A stretch of DNA of 64,000 nucleotides from Pyrinomonas methylaliphatogenes (lineage in GTDB: Bacteria; Acidobacteriota; Blastocatellia; Pyrinomonadales; Pyrinomonadaceae): positions 189,001-253,000 of the forward strand of contig NZ_CBXV010000008.1 of the NCBI RefSeq assembly GCF_000820845.2. The letters run 5' to 3'. The notes under the pieces are model-generated. The model did no database searches and was not told the origin of the DNA. It saw nothing but the letters and a program-made list of their open reading frames with translations. How positions within the stretch are numbered: position 1 is the first letter of the stretch; the number at the start of each line of letters is the position of its first letter. Shown here in pieces: positions 2,447 to 17,022 of this stretch. Both the position numbers and the translations under genes were made by a program.

Positions 2447-2950
2447 TCAAGCCTCATCCGCCGATGGCCCATAGACCGAAGGCACTGGGATGCCGTTCAG
2501 ACGTAGGTAGACGCCGAGCTGCGCGCGATGGTGGATCAGGTGATTGAAGACCATGCGGCGCAGCACGGCAAAGCGCGGCGCGGTGAAGAGCGTCTGCTCT
2601 CCAGCGCGCAGCGCCCACGCCTTCGCCAGCTCTTCATCGCTTGCCGCCGCGATCGCCCGGCGCGCCGCTTCGACGTTCTGTTCGAACAGTTTCAAAAGCT
2701 CCTCGCGCGAAGCGACCTCGGGCGCGCGCACTGTTTTCCCGTCGGGACCGATCACGTCGAACGCATCCGTTTCGATGACCACTCGGGCCCAACTCGGGAT
2801 ATTGGCGACGTGCGTCGCTAGCGCGCCCATGGTCATGGACTTTTCGTGCGGTCTCCAATCGAACCGGTCGTCGGGCACGCGCTCCAAAGTGCGGCGCGTG
2901 CTCGCCACTTCTTGCTCGAATTCCGGCAGAAAAAGTTCACTGATCGTCAT
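2447..2950 (-). CDS. DinB-family (DUF664-like) protein
   Basis: The 167-residue protein fits the DinB/YfiT four-helix-bundle family, thought to be metal-dependent thiol transferases or hydrolases. The pattern seen is FEQEVASTRRTLERVPDDRFDWRPHEKS near the start, an internal LATHVANIP histidine, and the C-terminal FNHLIHHRAQLGVYLRLNGIPVP. The three histidines of HEKS/LATHV/HHRAQ would bind the metal. Its ATG lies inside the 3' end of the M20 peptidase gene (14-bp overlap), so the two are translationally coupled and probably made from one mRNA. The substrate cannot be read from the sequence. Confidence 0.85.
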   Translation of the reverse strand: MTISELFLPEFEQEVASTRRTLERVPDDRFDWRPHEKSMTMGALATHVANIPSWARVVIETDAFDVIGPDGKTVRAPEVASREELLKLFEQNVEAARRAIAAASDEELAKAWALRAGEQTLFTAPRFAVLRRMVFNHLIHHRAQLGVYLRLNGIPVPSVYGPSADEA

Positions 2951-4391
2951 CTCTCGCTCCTTTCGCGGCGATGGCTTGCCCGCGCGGTAGATTCAAGGCG
3001 TTTTTGCTCTCGCCCTGAAAGTTCGCCTCTTCGGCCAAGCGTCCGAGTTGATGAATGACGCGACCGAAATATTTGATGCCTTGGATGAAATCTTCCAACC
3101 GTATGTTCTCATCCGGTCCGTGCGGATTCGATCCCTCGTAACCGATGCCGAACGAAACGACCGGCGTCGGCGGTTCGACGGCTCCGCATAACGCGCCTAC
3201 AGGGCCGCTCGCCGGATCGAGCGGATAGATGATCGGCTCCGTGCCGTAAACTTCGTTCGCCGATGCGACGGCAGCGCGCGCGACCAGAGAGCGCGCCGAC
3301 GATTTCGCCACCGGCGCGCGCGCCAGCACCGAGATCTCGATGTCGTCGAACCCGCGCCGGTCCAGATGTTCGCGCAACAGCCTGAGGACGAGTTCGGGCG
3401 TAAGATTCGGCACGAGCCGAAAATCGACGCGCGCCGCCGCCGTCCCCGGCAAAGCCGTCCGCGGCCCGGTCTCCGTATGCCCCGTCTGGATGGCGCAGAT
3501 CGTGCAGGTTGGTCCAAAGACCAGCTCGCGCACAAGTTCCGAACCGGAAAGACCGCGCGCCCAACTTTCGATGCGGAACTCGCGCTTGAGCCCCTCCTCA
3601 TCCAGCTCGACCGAAGCGAGCAGGCGCAAATCCTCTTCGTCGAGCGGAGCGACATGTCGCATGTAATCGTCCACCGTGATCTTGCCGTCGGGAGAAAGAA
3701 GGGTCGCCAGCGCGTGGACCAGCCGCCACGCCGGATTGGGCACGATCCCGCCCCACTTCGAGTGTATGTCGGTGCGCGCGCCATGCGCTCTGAGCTCGAC
3801 GAACGCGATGCCTTTAAACCCCAAACTGATCACCAAACGACCGCGTTCGTCTATGTAGCCATCATCCCAGATCGCGCCATGAGCGCGCAGCAAATCTGCA
3901 TGCTCGGTCGCAAACTGGTAGAGGCTCGGGCTGCCCAACGCATCCTCGCCTTCGACAATGTAGCGAAGGCAGAACGGGAGTTTGCCGAAGCTCTTCTGGT
4001 AGGCTTCGATGGCAGCTAGGCGCGCGACCAGATCGCCTTTGCTGTTGGCCGCGCCGCGCGCGTAGAGCTTGTTGCCGATGACCTGCGCGGCGAATGGTCC
4101 AGAGGTCCACTCGGTGAGCGATCCGACCGGTTGCACGTCGTAATGGCCGTAGATGAGAAAGCAATGCGAACCGGCGCCGAACTCGGCATAGATGATCGGA
4201 TAACCGCTCCCCAGACGGAAAAGGCGCGTGCCGCCGCCGGCGCGCTGCATCATCTGCTCGACCGTTTCGGCGACGGCGCGCATCCCCGTGCCGCGCGCGG
4301 CGACCGACGGCATGCGACACAGCGCTTGCAGCCGCTCGATGAAGCTCTGCGCGTTGCGTTCAACGTAACGGTCGAATCGCGTAAAACTCAT
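2937..4391 (-). CDS. M20-family peptidase (dipeptidase-like metallohydrolase)
   Basis: The protein has 484 residues, the size of M20 dipeptidases. The metal-binding pattern is visible: FLIYGHYDVQP (first metal His and catalytic Asp), then ARGAANSKGDL (bridging Asp replaced by Asn in the usual 'G..DdKG' turn) and IVEGEDALGSPSL (catalytic Glu; EGE rather than the usual EGEEE). The dimerisation lid occupies roughly residues 205-360. The bridging-metal position normally reads 'GA.DDKG' and here reads 'GAANSKG', so metal binding may differ from the textbook enzyme. It is the upstream partner of the overlapping DinB-like gene. It is probably cytoplasmic, as no signal peptide is present. Confidence 0.88.
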   Translation of the reverse strand: MSFTRFDRYVERNAQSFIERLQALCRMPSVAARGTGMRAVAETVEQMMQRAGGGTRLFRLGSGYPIIYAEFGAGSHCFLIYGHYDVQPVGSLTEWTSGPFAAQVIGNKLYARGAANSKGDLVARLAAIEAYQKSFGKLPFCLRYIVEGEDALGSPSLYQFATEHADLLRAHGAIWDDGYIDERGRLVISLGFKGIAFVELRAHGARTDIHSKWGGIVPNPAWRLVHALATLLSPDGKITVDDYMRHVAPLDEEDLRLLASVELDEEGLKREFRIESWARGLSGSELVRELVFGPTCTICAIQTGHTETGPRTALPGTAAARVDFRLVPNLTPELVLRLLREHLDRRGFDDIEISVLARAPVAKSSARSLVARAAVASANEVYGTEPIIYPLDPASGPVGALCGAVEPPTPVVSFGIGYEGSNPHGPDENIRLEDFIQGIKYFGRVIHQLGRLAEEANFQGESKNALNLPRGQAIAAKGARDDDQ

Positions 4392-4452: not shown

Positions 4453-5211
4453 TCAAGAGAGATCTTTCGCGCAATAGAGCAGATACCGCGGGCGCTCCGC
4501 GTCGCGCAAGAATCCGGCGCAGACGAGGCCGGCGGCGAAGGCTTCGGCAAATTCCGCGCGCACGCGCCGTTGCTCGCGGCGGGCCGCGTCGGCATCTCGG
4601 CGCACGAGCGCGCTCCAATCGGGCGGGATAACGATCTCGGCAGCTGGCTGCGCTCGCGGCGTTGGATCTTCGCCGCGCTGCGCGCGCTCGACTCGCGCCG
4701 AATCCAGCTCCCATTCGGCAAAGAGCCGATCGCTATCGATGCCGCCACGCTCGGGCATATTGTAATCCGTTCCGTAAAAATTGACGGCATAGGTGCGCAC
4801 GATCGCGCCGAGACGATTGAGGTTGAAGTGGGCGTTGCGCGCCTGCATCGGATCCCACGTCCATTTGATGAAGCGCACGCCTTCGCTGAGCGCCCGCTCG
4901 CGTTGCGCCCATTTGAGCTGCGCGCCGATGCCGCGATTCTGATAGTCGCGATGCACGGCCATCATGTGAGAATAGCCGATGATCTCCGCGCCGCGCCGCG
5001 CCACCAGATGGTGAACGAATCCCACTAAAAGATCGCCAGCAAACGCGCCGAGCGTCCAACCGCCAGCGTATCTGGAGACGATCAGGTGTCTGCGCGGCGA
5101 GACTTCAAGATCGGGCAAGCCGAAAACCTCGCGTTGCAATTCGATGCAACGATCGAACTCCTCGATCGTCGCGCATTCGCGGATGACGATCTCCGTCTGC
5201 GCTCGATTCAT
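4453..5211 (-). CDS. GNAT-fold protein of the COG3375 type
   Basis: A 252-residue protein starting at MNRAQTEIVIRECATIEEFD. The acetyl-CoA-binding stretch is HRDYQNRGIGAQLKWAQRER (motif A, Q/R-x-x-G-x-G) and is followed by IKWTWDPMQARNAHFNLNRL. The latter, with the NFYGTDY element, is typical of the uncharacterised COG3375 acetyltransferases. The C-terminal 70 residues are an alpha/beta extension rich in Arg and Ala. The frame stays open further upstream, but that N-terminus looks unlike the family. GGTAGGG directly precedes the ATG at 5211, so I chose this start. The substrate is unknown. Confidence 0.85.
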   Translation of the reverse strand: MNRAQTEIVIRECATIEEFDRCIELQREVFGLPDLEVSPRRHLIVSRYAGGWTLGAFAGDLLVGFVHHLVARRGAEIIGYSHMMAVHRDYQNRGIGAQLKWAQRERALSEGVRFIKWTWDPMQARNAHFNLNRLGAIVRTYAVNFYGTDYNMPERGGIDSDRLFAEWELDSARVERAQRGEDPTPRAQPAAEIVIPPDWSALVRRDADAARREQRRVRAEFAEAFAAGLVCAGFLRDAERPRYLLYCAKDLS

Positions 5212-5344
5212 CCCTACCATTTCCCCAAAACGATGTGCCACCGCATAAGCTAGCCGATCCTTACGCCTTCGCGCAACAAGCGCCATCGATCGACCGAGGG
5301 CGCCCCGATCGCGATTCGACCTTACAGAGTGGATCTTTCTCCGG

Positions 5345-5475
5345 GCGCGAGGAGCGATCTTATGCAAGGCTGGTCCAGATCATTATTGTTAACGACCTTT
5401 ACCCCAAGCGCGAGGAGCGATCGTTCCACGTGAACGATTCGGTCGCCGATGTCTCCTAAGCGCGAGGAGCGGCCG
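5345..5475. repeat. Three copies of a 15-nt intergenic repeat
   Basis: The 15-mer GCGCGAGGAGCGATC occurs at 5345-5359 and 5408-5422. A third, diverged copy (GCGCGAGGAGCGGCC) lies at 5460-5474. Offsets are 63 and 52 bp. All three sit in the 272-bp space between the acetyltransferase start and the chemoreceptor-fusion stop. No open frame or promoter explains them. Confidence 0.75.
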
Positions 5476-5483
5476 CAGGAAGC

Positions 5484-8400
5484 TTATGCTGGACCTGACG
5501 ACTTCCTCGCCAACCAAATCTTTTGCGGCCTGATCGCCGGCGCGACCAAATGCAATTCCAACCCTTCGACGTAAGGCTGCTGCACGACCGCCATATGTCG
5601 GTGCGCGAGGAATACGGCCAGCGCCTCTTCGGCAATCAAGCGCTGTAAGCGCGCATAGATCTGCGCGCGTTCGGCGTAGCTGATCGTACACCGCGCCCTT
5701 TCCGATAGTTCATCCACCTCCGGCACGCGCGCCATCCGCCCAACGCTCGAGTGGCGATTGGCAGAGTGAAATAGAAGGTAGGTGAAATTATCTGGATCCG
5801 CGTAATCAGCGTACCAACTGACCTCGATGAACTGCGCGCGCCCTTCCAAAGCCGCGTTTATGATCTCGGCGATCTCGGCGACGCGCACCCTAGCTTCAAT
5901 CCCTATGGCCGCCAAAGATTCGCAGATGAACTGGCCCGCCCTCTCGCAAATCGATTGCTCGGCGACGGAGCGCCACAACTCGACCTTCAAGCCGGAGCGA
6001 TATCCGGCCTCTGCGAGCAGCTTGCGCGCAAGTTTCGGATCGTAAGGGATGCCGGACCACCCGGCGTCATGTCCGATCAGGCCGGGCGGGATCGGTCCGA
6101 CGGCTGGCACGGCCATCTCGCCGTAAGATTCGCGGACGAAACGCTCGCGATCGATCGCATGCGCGATGGCGCGACGAACGCGCACGTCATTGAACGGCGG
6201 CTGTTCGGCATCGAAGGCGAGAAATTGCGTGTGCAGTTGAGCGCCGACGGAGATGCCTGAACGCCACTGTGCATCTTCGGCCAGACGCGCCAGCCTTTGG
6301 GCCGAACTCTCGCGCACGAAATCGAGTTCGCCACGTTTGAGGCGTTCGATTAAGGTCTCGCCGCTTTCGTTGTACTGCACAGTCACGCGATCGACGTATG
6401 GCTCGGTCTCGCGCCAGTAAAGATCGAATCTCTCCAGTTCGACGCGCCCCGTCTCCGCATCATAGGAGAGCAAGCGAAATGGTCCAGTGCCGATCGGATG
6501 GCGTGCGAACCGCGCCCCGCCGTCCTCTTCGATCTCTTCGCGTGGGACGATCGCGGCGAAACGCCGGCAGAGCGTCTGCAAGAAGAAAGCCAGCGGTTCC
6601 GTCAACTCGAGTTCGACGGTCCAGTCATCGAGCGCGCGCGCGCCGATCAACTCGTCCGTTTCGCCGCGGGCGTATTCCGGCGCGCCGACTAGGTTCATAA
6701 AGATCAACGAGCCCACGCGCGAGTGGCGAAGCGTCCGCTGAATCGAATAGACCACATCATGAGCCGTCATTACGCGACCGTTGTGAAAACGCACGCCGCG
6801 CCGCAGATTGAAGACGTAAACTCTGCCGTTGGCCGCGATCCGCCAACTTTCGGCGAGAACGGGCTTGACTTCTGCGTTCTTCCCCGTTTCGACCAAGCAC
6901 TCCAGCATCAGACTCAGAAGATCAGCGCGCGCGAGCGTCGTCGCCTCGAGCACATCGAGCGAAGGGATGAGCGTCTGCAGACCGTAGCGCAAGTGTCCGC
7001 CGCGCCGCGGCGTCGGCACGCGGAATTGCTTGACCGCGGCGCGCAGCGAGTTCGCTTCATAACCAAGAAGGCTCGATGTGTAATTGATCTGAACGATCGA
7101 AGCTTGATTGTTGCGCACCGATTCGTGGATGACCTCCATCGCGCGCAGAATATCTTCCGTCCCACGATGCTGCTCATCGGCAGCGTAGCCGATCTGATCG
7201 ATCAGCTCGGTCAAACGCTCCATCGCCTGCGCGACCTGTTTGGAACTATCCGCCTGCTCTTGCATCGCCCGCTGGACCTGTCCGGTGAGCAGGGCCATCT
7301 GCGTGGCGCGCTGTCCGATCTGCTGGGCCGTCGCCGCCTGTTCCGAGGTGGCGCGTTCGATCTCCTGCGCGCGCCGACGGACCTTGGCGACCAGTTCCGT
7401 CACCTGACGCGATTCGACAGCCTGCGTGCCAGCAGCCTCAGCGATCTGGCGGATCGCTCTGGCCGATTCCGCCGTCAAGCGGCTGATCTCGTTGAGCGAA
7501 CGCGCAGCGCGCTCGGCCAAACGCAAACCCTGATCGGCCAACTGGCGATTGGCATCCGCCTGGGCCATCGCGACGGCGACCGATTCGCGCACGCCCTTGA
7601 TCAATTGATTGATCTCCTCGGTCGAGCGCGCCGTCCGTTCCGAAAGCTCCTTGATCTCTTCAGCGACGACGGCGAAGCCGCGACCTTGCGGACCAGCTTG
7701 GGCGGCGAGGATGCGCGCGTTCAACGCCAGCAAGTTCGTGCGATCGGCGATCTCGTCGATCACGCGCGTGATCGCGCCGATGCGCTCCGAAGCTGCCCCC
7801 AACGCCGCGATCGTCTCAGCCGTCTCCTCGACGCTGCGGCGCGTCGTGCGCATCGACTCCGCCGTTTCGATGACGACCGCCGATCCCTGCTCAGCCGAAC
7901 GCTGCACCTCTTCGGCCAGCGCCGCCGCTTCGCCGGCAGCTTGATCGACGCGCTGCGTCGAATCGTCGATGGCGCGCATCGAACGCTCGGCCTCATCGGT
8001 CGCCTGCGCGAGCGACTCGGTCGCCGTGGCGACGTTGCGGACCGAAGCGGCCATCTCCTCGATCGATGAGGCCGTCTCTTCGACGAAAGAGGCGAGCGCA
8101 TCAGAGTTGGCCGACGCCTCATCGATCGAAGCGGCCATCTCCAAAATGGAGGTCGAAGTCGTCTGGGCCAAGTGCGATAGCGCGTTTACCGCCTCGGCGA
8201 TCGACGCCGCCGAAGCGCTGATCTGCGTGATCGCGCTGACGGTCGAATCGACCGATGCCGCCTCATCGCTTACAGCCGCAGCCAGTTGGCGTCCGCCTTC
8301 GAGCACGCGCGTCGCCACATCCTCGATGGATTCGGCGGCTTGTTGCAAGCTGTTAACCATGCGGCGGATGCGGCGCGCGAGCGCGATCAACTCCATCAAC

Positions 8401-8567
8401 GCCAACCTCTCTCCGGCGCGAAGCCGCGCGCTTTCAAGATCTAAAGCGATATCGGCGGTTAGATCGCCCGCAGCCAAGGCCATCGCCACGCGGCCCAACA
8501 GGCTCATCTCATCCCTGGTCCTTTTGGCGCCCTTCGTGCGCTCTATCTCTCTTTCTTCGACGCCCAT
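5484..8567 (-). CDS. Soluble methyl-accepting chemotaxis protein fused to a family 5 solute-binding domain
   Basis: The 1027-residue protein joins two families seldom seen in one chain. Residues about 20-90 are HAMP-like helices, and 90-500 are an MCP signalling coiled coil with the hairpin tip around residue 286 ([16 protein letters not shown], then [18 protein letters not shown]). From about residue 514 the chain is an SBP_bac_5/DppA-like oligopeptide-binding domain: LAESW...[54 protein letters not shown]. No signal peptide or membrane segment is present, so the binding domain should be cytoplasmic. The tip differs from E. coli Tsr at E385 (here Leu), R388 (Gln) and E391 (Pro), residues important for trimer contacts and CheA/CheW coupling. 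The start is supported by GGGAGAAAG before the ATG. No other che genes are nearby. Confidence 0.9.
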
Positions 8568-8828: not shown

Positions 8829-10241
8829 ATGAACGGTCAGCTTGGCGAATACCCGCTCGCCGAACTCATTCGCGAAATCTCAGACGAAAGTTTGTCGGGC
8901 GCCTTGCGTTTGCGGCGCGCGCGCGCGCGCGCGGCCCTTTACTTCGATCACGGCGATCTGGTCCATGTGGCGACGAATCTGCGCCCGTTACGCCTAATTG
9001 AATGCCTTCGCCGGTGGCGCGCAATCTCCGCAGAGACGCTCGCGCGTTTCGCCGCACTTCCCGACCTCGAACTGGGAGCTGCGCTCCTATCGCATGGCGT
9101 GATCGGAGCCGAAGAACTGAAGTCGTTGCGCGCCCGTCAAATGCTGGAATCGCTGCCTCCGCTGCTCCTTTGGACCGATGGCGAATGGGAATTCGACCCG
9201 CGCGTGCGCGTGGCCGAAGAACTGCGCTCGGCAACGGATATTAGATCACTGCTCGTCGAAAGCGCGCGGCGCCTTCCTGCCGCCTTCATCGCCTCGCGAC
9301 TCATTGACGATGAACTCCTCGCGCCAACGGGCTCGCCACTCATCCTCGATCTAAAGCCGACCGAAGCCTTCATCCTGTCGCGCCTTGACGCCCCGCTGAA
9401 ACTGGGCGAACTGCTTTCGATCAGCGGCCTTCCCGAAGACGAAGCGCGCCGAGCCGTCTACGCATTGATGTTGGCGGGTCTCATTCGACGCGCCGCAGAC
9501 AAACGCGCGCTCGCGCCGCAAGGGCCGCCGACGCAAAGAAGAGAGGCGGCGCCCACGCAAGATCAGGAGCGCGACGAACGGGCGGAGATCGCCGAGCTTC
9601 TTGCGCGCGCCGAGGCGGCGGACTTTTACCAGACGCTCGGCGTCAGTCGACAAGCGACGCCGCAGCAGATCAAAACCGCTTACTACGCGCTCGCCAAACG
9701 CTTTCATCCCGACCGTTTCTCGCGCGCGTTGGATGCAGAAACCCGTTCGCGCATCGAATCAGCTTTCGCCCGAATCACCCAGGCTTACGAGACGTTGAAC
9801 GATAGCGCGGCGCGTGCCGCCTACGACCTCAAGCTCGCATCGCCAACTTCTGCGCCGACTGGACCGCACCAACCGGACGCGGAAGAGTTTTACGAACGCG
9901 GCCTCGCCGCGCTACGGGCAGGCGAGATAGAGAGGGCCGCGGCGGAGTTTTCCGAGGCGGTGAAGCTCTCGCCGCATGAAGCCCGCTATCGGGCCGCGCT
10001 CGGACGCGCCCTGATGGGCGAACGCAGCAGACGCCGCCAAGCCGAGGCCGAATTGCAGATGGCCATCAAGCTCGACGGGAGCAATGTTGATTACCGCGTC
10101 TGGCTCGCCGAGCTTTACCGTTCGGTTGGGCTTTATCGTCGCGCCTTGCAAGAGTTGGAACATGCGTTATCGTTCGATGCGCGGCACGCGGAAGCCCAAC
10201 GTCTGTTTCGCGAAATAAGCGGCGCGGTGAAATCGTCATGA
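8829..10241 (+). CDS. PATAN (DUF4388) - J domain - TPR protein
   Basis: A 470-residue, three-part protein. Residues 1-100 are a PATAN/DUF4388 domain (GQLGEYPLAELIREISDESL, then ALYFDHGDLVHV), a module usually tied to bacterial signalling and gliding/pilus systems. About residues 173-222 look like a winged-helix repeat. Residues 263-330 are a J domain with the essential HPD at 294-296, so it should stimulate a DnaK ATPase. The C-terminal 120 residues form three TPR-like helices pairs (FYERGLAALRAGEIERAAAE and similar). It is the first gene of a plus-strand operon with the HD-GYP gene 57 bp downstream. The client or partner is unknown. Confidence 0.88.
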   Translation: MNGQLGEYPLAELIREISDESLSGALRLRRARARAALYFDHGDLVHVATNLRPLRLIECLRRWRAISAETLARFAALPDLELGAALLSHGVIGAEELKSLRARQMLESLPPLLLWTDGEWEFDPRVRVAEELRSATDIRSLLVESARRLPAAFIASRLIDDELLAPTGSPLILDLKPTEAFILSRLDAPLKLGELLSISGLPEDEARRAVYALMLAGLIRRAADKRALAPQGPPTQRREAAPTQDQERDERAEIAELLARAEAADFYQTLGVSRQATPQQIKTAYYALAKRFHPDRFSRALDAETRSRIESAFARITQAYETLNDSAARAAYDLKLASPTSAPTGPHQPDAEEFYERGLAALRAGEIERAAAEFSEAVKLSPHEARYRAALGRALMGERSRRRQAEAELQMAIKLDGSNVDYRVWLAELYRSVGLYRRALQELEHALSFDARHAEAQRLFREISGAVKSS

Positions 10242-13482: not shown

Positions 13483-16400
13483 TCACTTGCATTTCGAGTA
13501 ACCGCAATCTCTGCAGGTGTCGCAATTCGAGGCGTGCTCCAACTGCCCGCCGCATTCCGGGCAGACGCCCGTCTGGGCGCGCTTGACGTCGTCCGCTTTG
13601 GCGATCTGGCGCGCCGCATCGGGCAACCCCGCAAGCCTTCGCGCCGTGATCAGGATGCACTCGGCGACGGCCTGTTCGGGGCTCGTCAGCAACCGCTGAT
13701 TGAACCAGACCGCATGAGTTCCCGTCACTTTGTTGAGCGAGCGGGCGACCTCTTCGGCCTCGAAGCCGCCGCGCAACATTTTACTGGCGAGAAGGCCGAC
13801 TCCGCCTGAGATGGGGCCGGTGGCAAAGACTTCGAGGATTTGGCGTCCGTCGTGATTGACGGTGACGTAGAGGTTCTGTCCATCGAAGGGGATGCGCCAC
13901 GTCCAGCCTTGAAGTTCGCGCGGGCGCTCCAGGCGAGTCGCGCTCTTCGCTTCCAGATTTGGCGACTCATGCGAGGCGGTTCCGGTCGCCTGTTGTGGGG
14001 CCGTGGAGACCGTGACGGTGTTCAGGACTTGGGAGTCGCGGCTGCCGTCGCGATAGTAACTGACGGCCTTGCATCCGAGTTGGCGCGCCAGTCTGTAAAG
14101 GCGATCGACGGATTCGACCGTATCATTGGCCGCCCCGTTGACCGTCTTCGACACGCCGTTATCGACGTGGCGTTGCGCTGCGGCCAAAACTTTCACGTGC
14201 TGTTCGGCGGTGATCTTCATGGCGGAGATGAAATGCTCCGGCAACTTCTCCTCGTGCTCGACGACATACTGAGCAGCCCGATCGATCGACGCCTGATCCG
14301 TCTGATCGACTTCTAGCCCGAGAGCTTCTGCGGCCAGCGTGTGCACATAAGTGCGCGTCCCCAAGGTATCGCGCCGGACGTAAGCCCAACTGAAATTAGG
14401 TTCGACGCCCGAACTGGTTTCGGCGACGAGCGAGATGGTTCCCGTCGGGGCGATCGTCGTCACCTCGTAGTTGCGCGGCGTCAAGGGGAGGTCGCGCGGA
14501 ATGCCGACTTCGCCGTAGAGAAAATCGGCGTAAGCGTCGCGATTGGGTTCGAGTTCCGGGAACGTCCCCTTTTCGCGCCCCAGAGCGAGCGAGGCGAGCC
14601 ACGCTTCCTTGCGAATGAAGCCCATCACTTCATCCATCACGGCGATCGACTCATCGGACCCGTAGGTGATGCCGAGTTTAAGCAATAGATCGGCGTAGCC
14701 CATAATGCCGAGGCCGACCGGACGTGTCCGCTTCACCACGTCATCTATTTCTGGGAGCGGCCAACCGCACACGTCGATGACGTTATCGAGGAAGCGAACG
14801 GACCAGCGGACCGTATCAGCGAGCGCTTCCCAGTCGACTCTCCGTTCCGGGTCGTAGAACTTCGCCAGATCGATCGAGCCCAAGTTGCACGAATTATTGA
14901 AATGAAGCGCTTGTTCGGCGCAGTTGTGGACCACGATGCCGTTGGCGATGAACGAATGTGTGGCTGGCTCGGTCAGATCGAAGACATCCTCCACGCCGTC
15001 GAAAGTGACGCGCGCGACTCTTGCCGTAAAGGTTTCTTTGGGTTCGCGCGTGCGCCTTTCGACGATCATTTCAAGTTTCTGTTGCTTAGCGCTCTGGAGA
15101 AAACCTATCTCACGGGCGAATGTTCTCAGGTTTTCACGCGAGATCACAAGTTCGTGGATGGGCTGGCAAGCATAAAGCCCTTCGCCCCCGCGCCCGTTCG
15201 GCAAGATCTGCTTCCTTGCTTCCCTTCGATGCTGATAAATCCGACTGGCGATGCCGAAATTGAGAAGCAGACACTGCACGTCTCGCAACAATTCCAGCGA
15301 AATGGAGCAGAGACGCACCGAAGCGCCTTTCTCCAAATTACTGAGCACCGTACCATTGGCCGAGAAGAGACCTTGCAGGAAGCCGCGCTGCATCTGTTCC
15401 GACCCGCGAAAGACGCGCTCCGAAACGCGCAACTTCTCGCGCACCAACCAACGATCTTCGATCAACAGATCACGCAAGCGCGTGGATGTGATTCGCGCTT
15501 CGTTGCGCTCCACTATTCGGGCGACGCCTACCACATAATCTTTGCGCGCGCCGCGTCCCATTGGGACGAGTTCGTTGACGTAAGACGCAAAAGTCGGCGC
15601 GAGCGCGCGATCTTCGCCCCAAAAACTGAGCACGGCTTTGCTCGACGTAAGGTGTCCATCGCCGACCATCCACCCCGTCACGCGCCCCAATTCGAGCGAT
15701 CCTTCCGTGCCGAATGCGCCCTTGCGGTTGAGGATGTGGATTTCGTCTCCCGGCTGTAGTTTGCCGAGTTCGACCCAACCGCGCTTGGTCATGATGCGGT
15801 GATCAGCGGTGGCGCGCAGGACGTACCCTTCGATGGTTTCGAGCCGGAAGACCGGACGGCGTCCGGTGCGGAAGACCGCCGAAGCTTGCGCGACCGCAGG
15901 CTCATGCCCGAACCTTCCATCGACGACGACGCTGACCTTTTGACCTTGCCGGAACAGTTCGCCAGCGCGCACCAACCCCTGATCCGTGTAGATGAGCGCG
16001 TCGGCCGTCACGCAGGGATTTGTCGCGTAGATCGGCCCCATCGAGGCCATCATGTGATTGTGCCGGTTGACCTCGTCGATGAAGATGACGCCCGGTTCGG
16101 CGTAACGATGAGCCGAGGCGACGATGCGATTCCACACATCCGGCGCATAGACCATCCCGGGGCGGGGCGGATCCTCGCGGCGCAAGGTTGAAAAATCGGT
16201 GCGCAGGAAATCCTTTCGATCGGCGAAGGTGACGGTCGAACCGTCCTCGCGCCGCCACACGCAGTAATCCCCCTCTTGGACCGGATCGTAGATGGGTCGC
16301 TCCCACGGGCGGCCATCGAACTCGAGTTGGAACCACTCGCCGCGATCGACGGCCTCCATGAAGCGGTCGGTGACGGTCACCGAGATATTGAAGTTGGTTA

Positions 16401-17022
16401 AACTGGTCTGATCGTTCTTGGCGTGGATGAAGCGCAGGATGTCCGGGTGGGTGACGCGCAAAATGCCCATGTTGGCTCCTCTTCGGACGCCGCCCTGCTT
16501 GACCGTCTCGGTGACGGTGTTGACGATCTGCATGAAGGAGACCGGTCCCGAAGCCTGTCCGTGCGAGGAGCGCACTAAACTTCCGGCCGGGCGGATGAAC
16601 TCATAGGTCATCCCCGTTCCACCCCCGCTTTTGTGAATGAGAGCGCAGCGTTTGGCGTGCTCCATGATGCCTTCGATGGAGTCCGGCACCTCCAGCACGA
16701 AGCAGGCAGCCAGTTGGCCGCGCGGCTTTCCGGCGTTGACCAGACACGGCGTGTTGGGGATGAAGTAGCGCCCCAACATGATCTCGCTCATCGCCTCGTA
16801 GAAGGCGCGGCGGGCGGCCTCGTTGGTCTCAGCTTGCGCGATCGCGCCGACAACCCGACGCACGATGTCGGGCCACTCTTCGAGCGGCCTTCCTTCCGCA
16901 TCCTTCAGGCTGTAACGCTTGGCGATGACGCGCCGCGCGTTCAGTCCGAGCGCTTCGGCGTTTGATCCCTTGAGAGCTGATCGGTAGATCCTATCTTTTC
17001 GCTTTTCGATCACGGTGCTCAT
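13483..17022 (-). CDS. nrdJ: B12-dependent ribonucleoside-diphosphate reductase with an intein
   Basis: Class II ribonucleotide reductase makes deoxyribonucleotides using adenosylcobalamin and no oxygen. The 1179-residue precursor contains residues 1-336 of the enzyme ([27 protein letters not shown]), an intein (337-700) and the remaining 479 residues. The mature enzyme would be 815 residues. After the junction come [20 protein letters not shown], the PTGT loop ([20 protein letters not shown]), a TSCPD domain ([10 protein letters not shown]...) and a C-terminal zinc ribbon (CPECGG...[13 protein letters not shown]). The intein separates NP from C of the NPCxE active-site motif, so splicing is essential. 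The next residue is Ala, where Gly is usual. GGCGGAAGAA precedes the ATG. A consensus promoter lies 180 bp upstream. Confidence 0.96.
14923..16014 (-). mobile_element. Intein with LAGLIDADG endonuclease remnant inside NrdJ
   Basis: The element encodes 364 residues (337-700 of the precursor). Block A starts with Cys1 ([20 protein letters not shown]). Block B holds TADH ([19 protein letters not shown]). Block F is [16 protein letters not shown], and block G ends IVVHN before Cys+1. All splicing residues (Cys1, block B His, penultimate His, terminal Asn, Cys+1) are present, so it should splice. The DOD endonuclease keeps its first motif (GWMVGDGHL), but the second reads [11 protein letters not shown], with Asn where the catalytic Asp of 'FSADG' is expected. 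Homing is therefore probably lost while splicing is kept. Confidence 0.95.

Follow-up and report, generated by a model that had tools for sequence, protein, structure and literature searches.

A soluble chemoreceptor with a C-terminal family 5 substrate-binding domain in Pyrinomonas methylaliphatogenes K22T, a probable intracellular ligand receptor

Pyrinomonas methylaliphatogenes is a heat-loving soil bacterium, and the genome of strain K22T is composed of 3,788,560 bases in 16 contigs. The window analysed here, a stretch of 64,000 nucleotides (contig NZ_CBXV010000008.1, positions 189,001 to 253,000), contains one complete ORF that we call MCP-SBP5 (Table 1). Pfam finds two domains in this single ORF, each far above its cut-off: MCPsignal (PF00015; E 8.7e-38, 130.3 bits against a curated cut-off of 34.6) and, C-terminal to it, SBP_bac_5 at residues 566-938 (5754-6872; E 7.4e-82, 275.8 bits against 32.4). 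The preliminary description of this DNA, made from the sequence alone, had read it, without giving the strand, as one chain of 1027 residues joining an MCP coiled coil to a DppA-like binding domain, and the domain searches of the two halves agree with that reading. Regarding the surrounding genes, a GNAT and an M20 metallopeptidase gene also lie downstream of the receptor in the relative G007, and the M20 gene alone was noted in G036. The M20 neighbour hints at peptide metabolism, although the arrangement is not general. No permease or ATPase genes adjoin the K22T receptor and no transporter genes recur at its orthologues. A link to a che operon or an Opp permease was also considered, and neither these nor any other che genes stand beside the receptor in the orthologue neighbourhoods examined. 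Elsewhere in the window, a ribonucleotide reductase-like ORF of 1179 aa (13483-17022, minus strand) has an apparent intein, as judged by eye.

Table 1. Features of the MCP-SBP5 locus, in positions of the window.
Feature	Position	Strand	Remarks
MCP-SBP5 ORF	5484..8567	minus	Complete, ATG to stop, 1027 aa; soluble MCP coiled coil and C-terminal SBP family 5 domain
HAMP-like stretch, residues 25-92 (..AAGDL..)	8292..8495	minus	HAMP E 0.008, below cut-off
MCP long antiparallel helical hairpin, residues 51-509	7041..8417	minus	Low-confidence full-length model and MCPsignal
Two perfect methylation consensus motifs, residues 159-175	8043..8093	minus	Motif match
Pfam MCPsignal (PF00015), residues 217-397	7377..7919	minus	Pfam
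Hairpin tip, residues 278-298	7674..7736	minus	IxAAQAG, Geobacter/myxobacterial type, where EAARAG is usual
SBP family 5 domain, complete, residues 519-1022	5502..7013	minus	High-confidence predicted fold and Pfam
Pocket motif with D921, residues 918-928	5784..5816	minus	D921 aligned to D436 of the DppA precursor (D408 of the mature chain)
GNAT acetyltransferase, next gene downstream of the receptor	4453..5367	minus	Adjacent or near in Pyrinomonas-family orthologues
M20 metallopeptidase, second gene downstream	2937..4391	minus	Order kept in the Pyrinomonas family
DUF4388-DnaJ-TPR protein, divergent neighbour of the receptor	8829..10241	plus	DUF4388-type gene also near the receptor in two other genomes (L025, L028)

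By hydropathy the receptor has zero transmembrane helices, as do the class IV (cytoplasmic) chemoreceptors. The highest Kyte-Doolittle mean over 19 residues is 1.28 for the whole chain and 1.24 for the first 60 residues. A hidden N-terminal extension is absent, the stop-to-stop frame (1031 codons) being just four codons longer than the ORF (1027). Hydropathy and the upstream in-frame stop are thus in accord with the earlier claim that the chain has neither a signal peptide nor a membrane segment. The signal peptide or lipobox and the extracytoplasmic location that define the substrate-binding proteins of ABC transporters are lacking in the receptor; three other SBP_bac_5 proteins of the K22T genome (L042-L044) bear lipoprotein-type signal sequences, with lipoboxes read by eye.

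In a survey that covered Acidobacteriota genomes, the MCP-then-SBP order was found in 30 of the 396 sampled, belonging to 23 of 210 genera, and nearly all of these proteins matched the receptor from residue ~22-33 to 1023. Relatives within the source class contribute 12 other copies with this order, most of them complete or nearly so and a few ending at contig edges, and the K22T receptor is 65-66% identical to the long family members. These data bear on the most trivial explanation of the chain, namely an assembly or frameshift artefact that joined two genes, which the preliminary description had itself raised, or an exported protein whose N-terminus was missed. The join is excluded by orthologues with identical order and full or near-full length in the 30 genomes of the phylum, and the missed N-terminus is ruled out by the upstream stop and the absence of a hydrophobic stretch, so that the probability left to either is negligible. 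Genome G040 has two diverged MCP-SBP5 paralogues (L026 and L032), the SBP domain of L032 grouping weakly with kinase-fused SBPs. In family f20 (L159, L160, L161 and L163), the receptor gene comes after genes that by eye resemble acetyl-CoA hydrolase/transferase and alanine dehydrogenase, and the MCP tip of these receptors is strongly diverged.

The full-length AlphaFold2 model of the receptor, made with 11 sequences, is poor (pLDDT 57.8). The model of the SBP domain, made with 81 aligned domains, has a pLDDT of 95.7 and a pTM of 0.92, and predicts a complete SBP fold at high confidence. The top Foldseek matches are peptide-type SBPs (8upi and DppA of E. coli, Yersinia and Helicobacter, with E down to 6.5e-50); 8upi, the closest solved structure, has aminoserine bound, and the matches further include NikZ, AgaA and SapA. 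In DppA, D436 holds the amino group of the ligand and R383 the carboxylate (PMC12136057). Of the 42 intracellular fused domains, 41 retain D921, the counterpart of the former, and all have D926, against 31 and 14, respectively, of the 39 stand-alone SBPs; overall, the fused branch conserves the pocket motif WxxDYxDxD better than the stand-alone SBPs do. In contrast to the Asp, the Arg that anchors the carboxylate is not conserved in the alignment, so only one of the two residues characteristic of DppA is present and a plain dipeptide ligand is not assured. As far as the sequence goes, this pattern points to a ligand that bears an amine and would not necessarily be a dipeptide. The nearest NCBIfam model for the second half, the DppA equivalog NF043070, gives 180 bits against a cut-off of 1005, and the SgrR model NF010149 gives 41 bits against 476, the receptor being without a DNA-binding domain.

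The reading we favour is that MCP-SBP5 binds a ligand inside the cell and signals through CheA, which we regard as probable. The SBP domain could instead have ceased to bind small solutes and serve for docking or as a scaffold, binding a transporter subunit or another protein, for instance, in which case the receptor would report transporter state or localisation and not a metabolite. The unconserved carboxylate anchor would fit such a role, as would the fused SBPs being only ~30% identical between classes, but the complete fold of very high confidence and a pocket motif better conserved in the fused branch argue for a retained binding function and make docking unlikely. A variant of the favoured reading concerns the class of ligand: the sensor may detect a non-peptide metabolite, such as a sugar phosphate, a modified amino acid, a nickel-ligand or an opine-like compound. 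The chemical diversity of SBP family 5 ligands, represented here by the aminoserine of 8upi and by NikZ, AgaA and SapA, and the precedent of SgrR make this a serious possibility, about one chance in three, which overlaps with the confidence given to the favoured reading. Peptide-type ligands are preferred because sequence and fold both match peptide binders best, the amine-holding Asp is kept and an M20 peptidase is encoded nearby.

The MCP half has two strict methylation motifs, which precede the hairpin tip by 122 and 129 residues; conserved E/Q pairs occupy the return helix at a similar distance from the tip, and CheR and CheB are both encoded in the genome. The tip, the putative site of contact with CheA and CheW, keeps the core GRGFAVVA, with L and Q in place of the E and R of EAAR, and (L/I)AAQ replaces EAAR throughout nearly the entire fused family. 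Since the Geobacter and myxobacterial MCPs found as neighbours generally carry the same substitution, the altered tip would denote a receptor class and not decay. A dead receptor, as a degenerate tip might imply, was rejected on the ground that IxAAQAG is common to many Geobacter and myxobacterial MCPs. The MCPs of Geobacter belong mostly to classes 40H, 40+24H and 34H (PMC3543383). A basic N-terminal tail occurs in two or three relatives; it is not clearly present in the K22T receptor, and the idea of a DNA-binding tail like that of FrzCD was dropped.

An MCPsignal search of the K22T genome, which is 99.5% complete, returned a single match, the MCP-SBP5 gene itself, a circumstance that the preliminary description had overlooked. 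The che set comprises one CheA, two CheW, one CheR and one CheB, the CheB gene lying 0.9 kb past the window end. The only CheA found in the genome has the layout Hpt-HATPase-CheW (L021:11886-13895); the Pfam dimerisation domain was undetected in it, as it was in G001, G002, G007 and G031, four close relatives that likewise have the fused protein as the one MCP found. Other families have several MCPs, MCP-SBP5 being one of them, and 32 of 60 relatives are without any MCP. The single MCP would make P. methylaliphatogenes a direct case for a chemosensory pathway with internal input only. If the sole input is indeed internal, the behaviour under CheA control would read the internal state of the cell and not outside chemicals.

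Strain K22T has been described as a non-motile user of peptides, with Opp importers and a nearly complete set of flagellar genes that possibly lacks flgF (PMC4644332). Its genome contains flagellin genes and three ATPases of the PilT family. One flagellar cluster with flagellin-type genes was seen in L174 (G000 C4:1-20000), though the species is described as non-motile. Flagellin was not found in most other source-class genomes with the receptor, and a strict flagellar role is not supported; the conserved output is therefore more likely to be type IV pili or something else. The reported lack of motility might also mean that the chemosensory set is a non-functional relic, in which the receptor is only partly kept, and the possible loss of flgF (PMC4644332) and the relatives devoid of MCPs are in line with this. 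We consider it improbable, even more so than a docking role, because the ORF is intact, identity to long family members is high (65-66%), methylation and pocket motifs are preserved, the Che set is full and the receptor is retained phylum-wide. The receptor may help to clarify whether the lack of motility despite flagellar genes is a matter of signalling.

Taking MCP-SBP5 as an intracellular ligand receptor, the following chain of events can be proposed. A small solute inside the cell that carries a free amino group, most probably a peptide or a metabolite derived from one, either taken up by Opp importers or released by proteolysis, would close the Venus flytrap that the SBP domain forms at the C-terminal base of the MCP hairpin. 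Closure would alter how the coiled coil packs at its base, and the signal would run along the hairpin to the tip, where the change would alter CheA autophosphorylation; methylation by CheR/CheB would reset the receptor. In this way the cell's internal nutrient state may govern its motility apparatus (type IV pili, in Pyrinomonas perhaps also flagella) or a different output of CheA. As to the preliminary description, its cytosolic placement, the covalent union of MCP and SBP5, the intact fold of the cleft and the domain order all stand, and its suggestion that internal peptides or metabolites are sensed is kept as the best-supported interpretation. A chemoreceptor that holds a family 5 sensor inside the cell would sense solutes already imported, that is, the cell's own internal chemistry.

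Analysis of the homologues outside the source class gives some indication of how this arrangement evolved. Their N-termini carry one or two stretches of strong hydrophobicity, a few residues apart, followed by a HAMP-like ..GDL.. segment, and thus have a membrane hairpin only, without a periplasmic domain. Because no periplasmic domain is present and the MCP is necessarily inside, their SBP is predicted to be cytosolic as well, and because just the membrane hairpin precedes the HAMP-like stretch, it is the sole sensor candidate. The K22T receptor and its class-mates are without the hairpin and keep the GDL stretch as a weak HAMP match, which aligns with the post-hairpin segment of the homologues outside the class. 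The membrane-anchored form may be ancestral.

Within the source class, the best non-MCP BLAST matches to the SBP domain of the receptor are proteins of 1400-1900 residues. Six of them (L035-L038, L040 and L041) have the architecture Ser/Thr kinase-AAA-SBP5, with one or two SBP copies, and L039 is an OmpR-type wHTH-AAA-SBP5 protein with two. Their SBP domains are the nearest to that of the receptor outside the MCPs, share its branch of the tree and are intracellular by architecture, although these proteins differ from it in their output domains, in mostly having two SBP copies and in being much larger. A tree built from 81 SBP domains separates every stand-alone SBP from all the MCP-, kinase- and wHTH-fused ones (branch support 95); its sampling favours relatives of the query, and its deepest forks are weak (54). 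This topology would be compatible with one capture of the SBP as an intracellular sensor. The kinase and wHTH proteins probably constitute a family of intracellular solute sensors in Acidobacteriota, and intracellular SBP sensors on kinases and regulators suggest a signalling module of this large and poorly studied soil phylum. In a bolder scenario, SBP5 was captured once, early, in a membrane-anchored receptor and then spread to soluble MCPs, Ser/Thr-kinase-STAND and wHTH proteins, and the behaviour governed by CheA in Pyrinomonas follows internal peptide status alone; we put this forward tentatively, as having somewhat less than an even chance.

SBP family 5 proteins are normally extracellular catchers that pass their ligands to importers or to separate receptors, and among the periplasmic binding proteins of the DppA/OppA type, DppA feeds the Tap chemoreceptor. 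The receptor shares with DppA/OppA the SBP family, the fold and the conserved Asp that anchors the amine. In contrast, DppA/OppA are periplasmic, separate from the chemoreceptor and shared with an ABC importer, whereas the SBP of the receptor is intracellular and fused. SBP profiles also match the sensor domains of cytosolic signalling proteins (PMC9602780). The E. coli transcription activator SgrR has a C-terminal SBP-like domain and is believed to be activated by a small molecule, as proposed in glucose-phosphate stress; it is a cytosolic sensor of SBP family 5 type tied to an output domain, like the receptor, to which its sequence match is partial and weak, but its output is DNA binding and not an MCP coiled coil. 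On the chemoreceptor side, FrzCD of Myxococcus xanthus is a soluble MCP (PMC2535941, PMC6952110). It resembles the receptor in being cytoplasmic and methyl-accepting, without a periplasmic sensor, in a pathway not directly driven by outside ligands, and differs in having no SBP domain, whereas the receptor has a complete family 5 domain and its gene lies outside a che operon. The preliminary description knew of no characterised example of the MCP-SBP5 order, and we found no description of it in the open-access literature; it had overlooked SgrR and the kinase- and wHTH-fused SBP5 proteins, which are precedents for cytosolic family 5 sensors, as well as the relatives outside the source class that are held at the membrane with the SBP still predicted inside. 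Overall, a cytosolic family 5 sensor (SgrR) and a soluble MCP (FrzCD) are known, and what appears to be new is a phylum-wide family of receptors with a C-terminal intracellular SBP.
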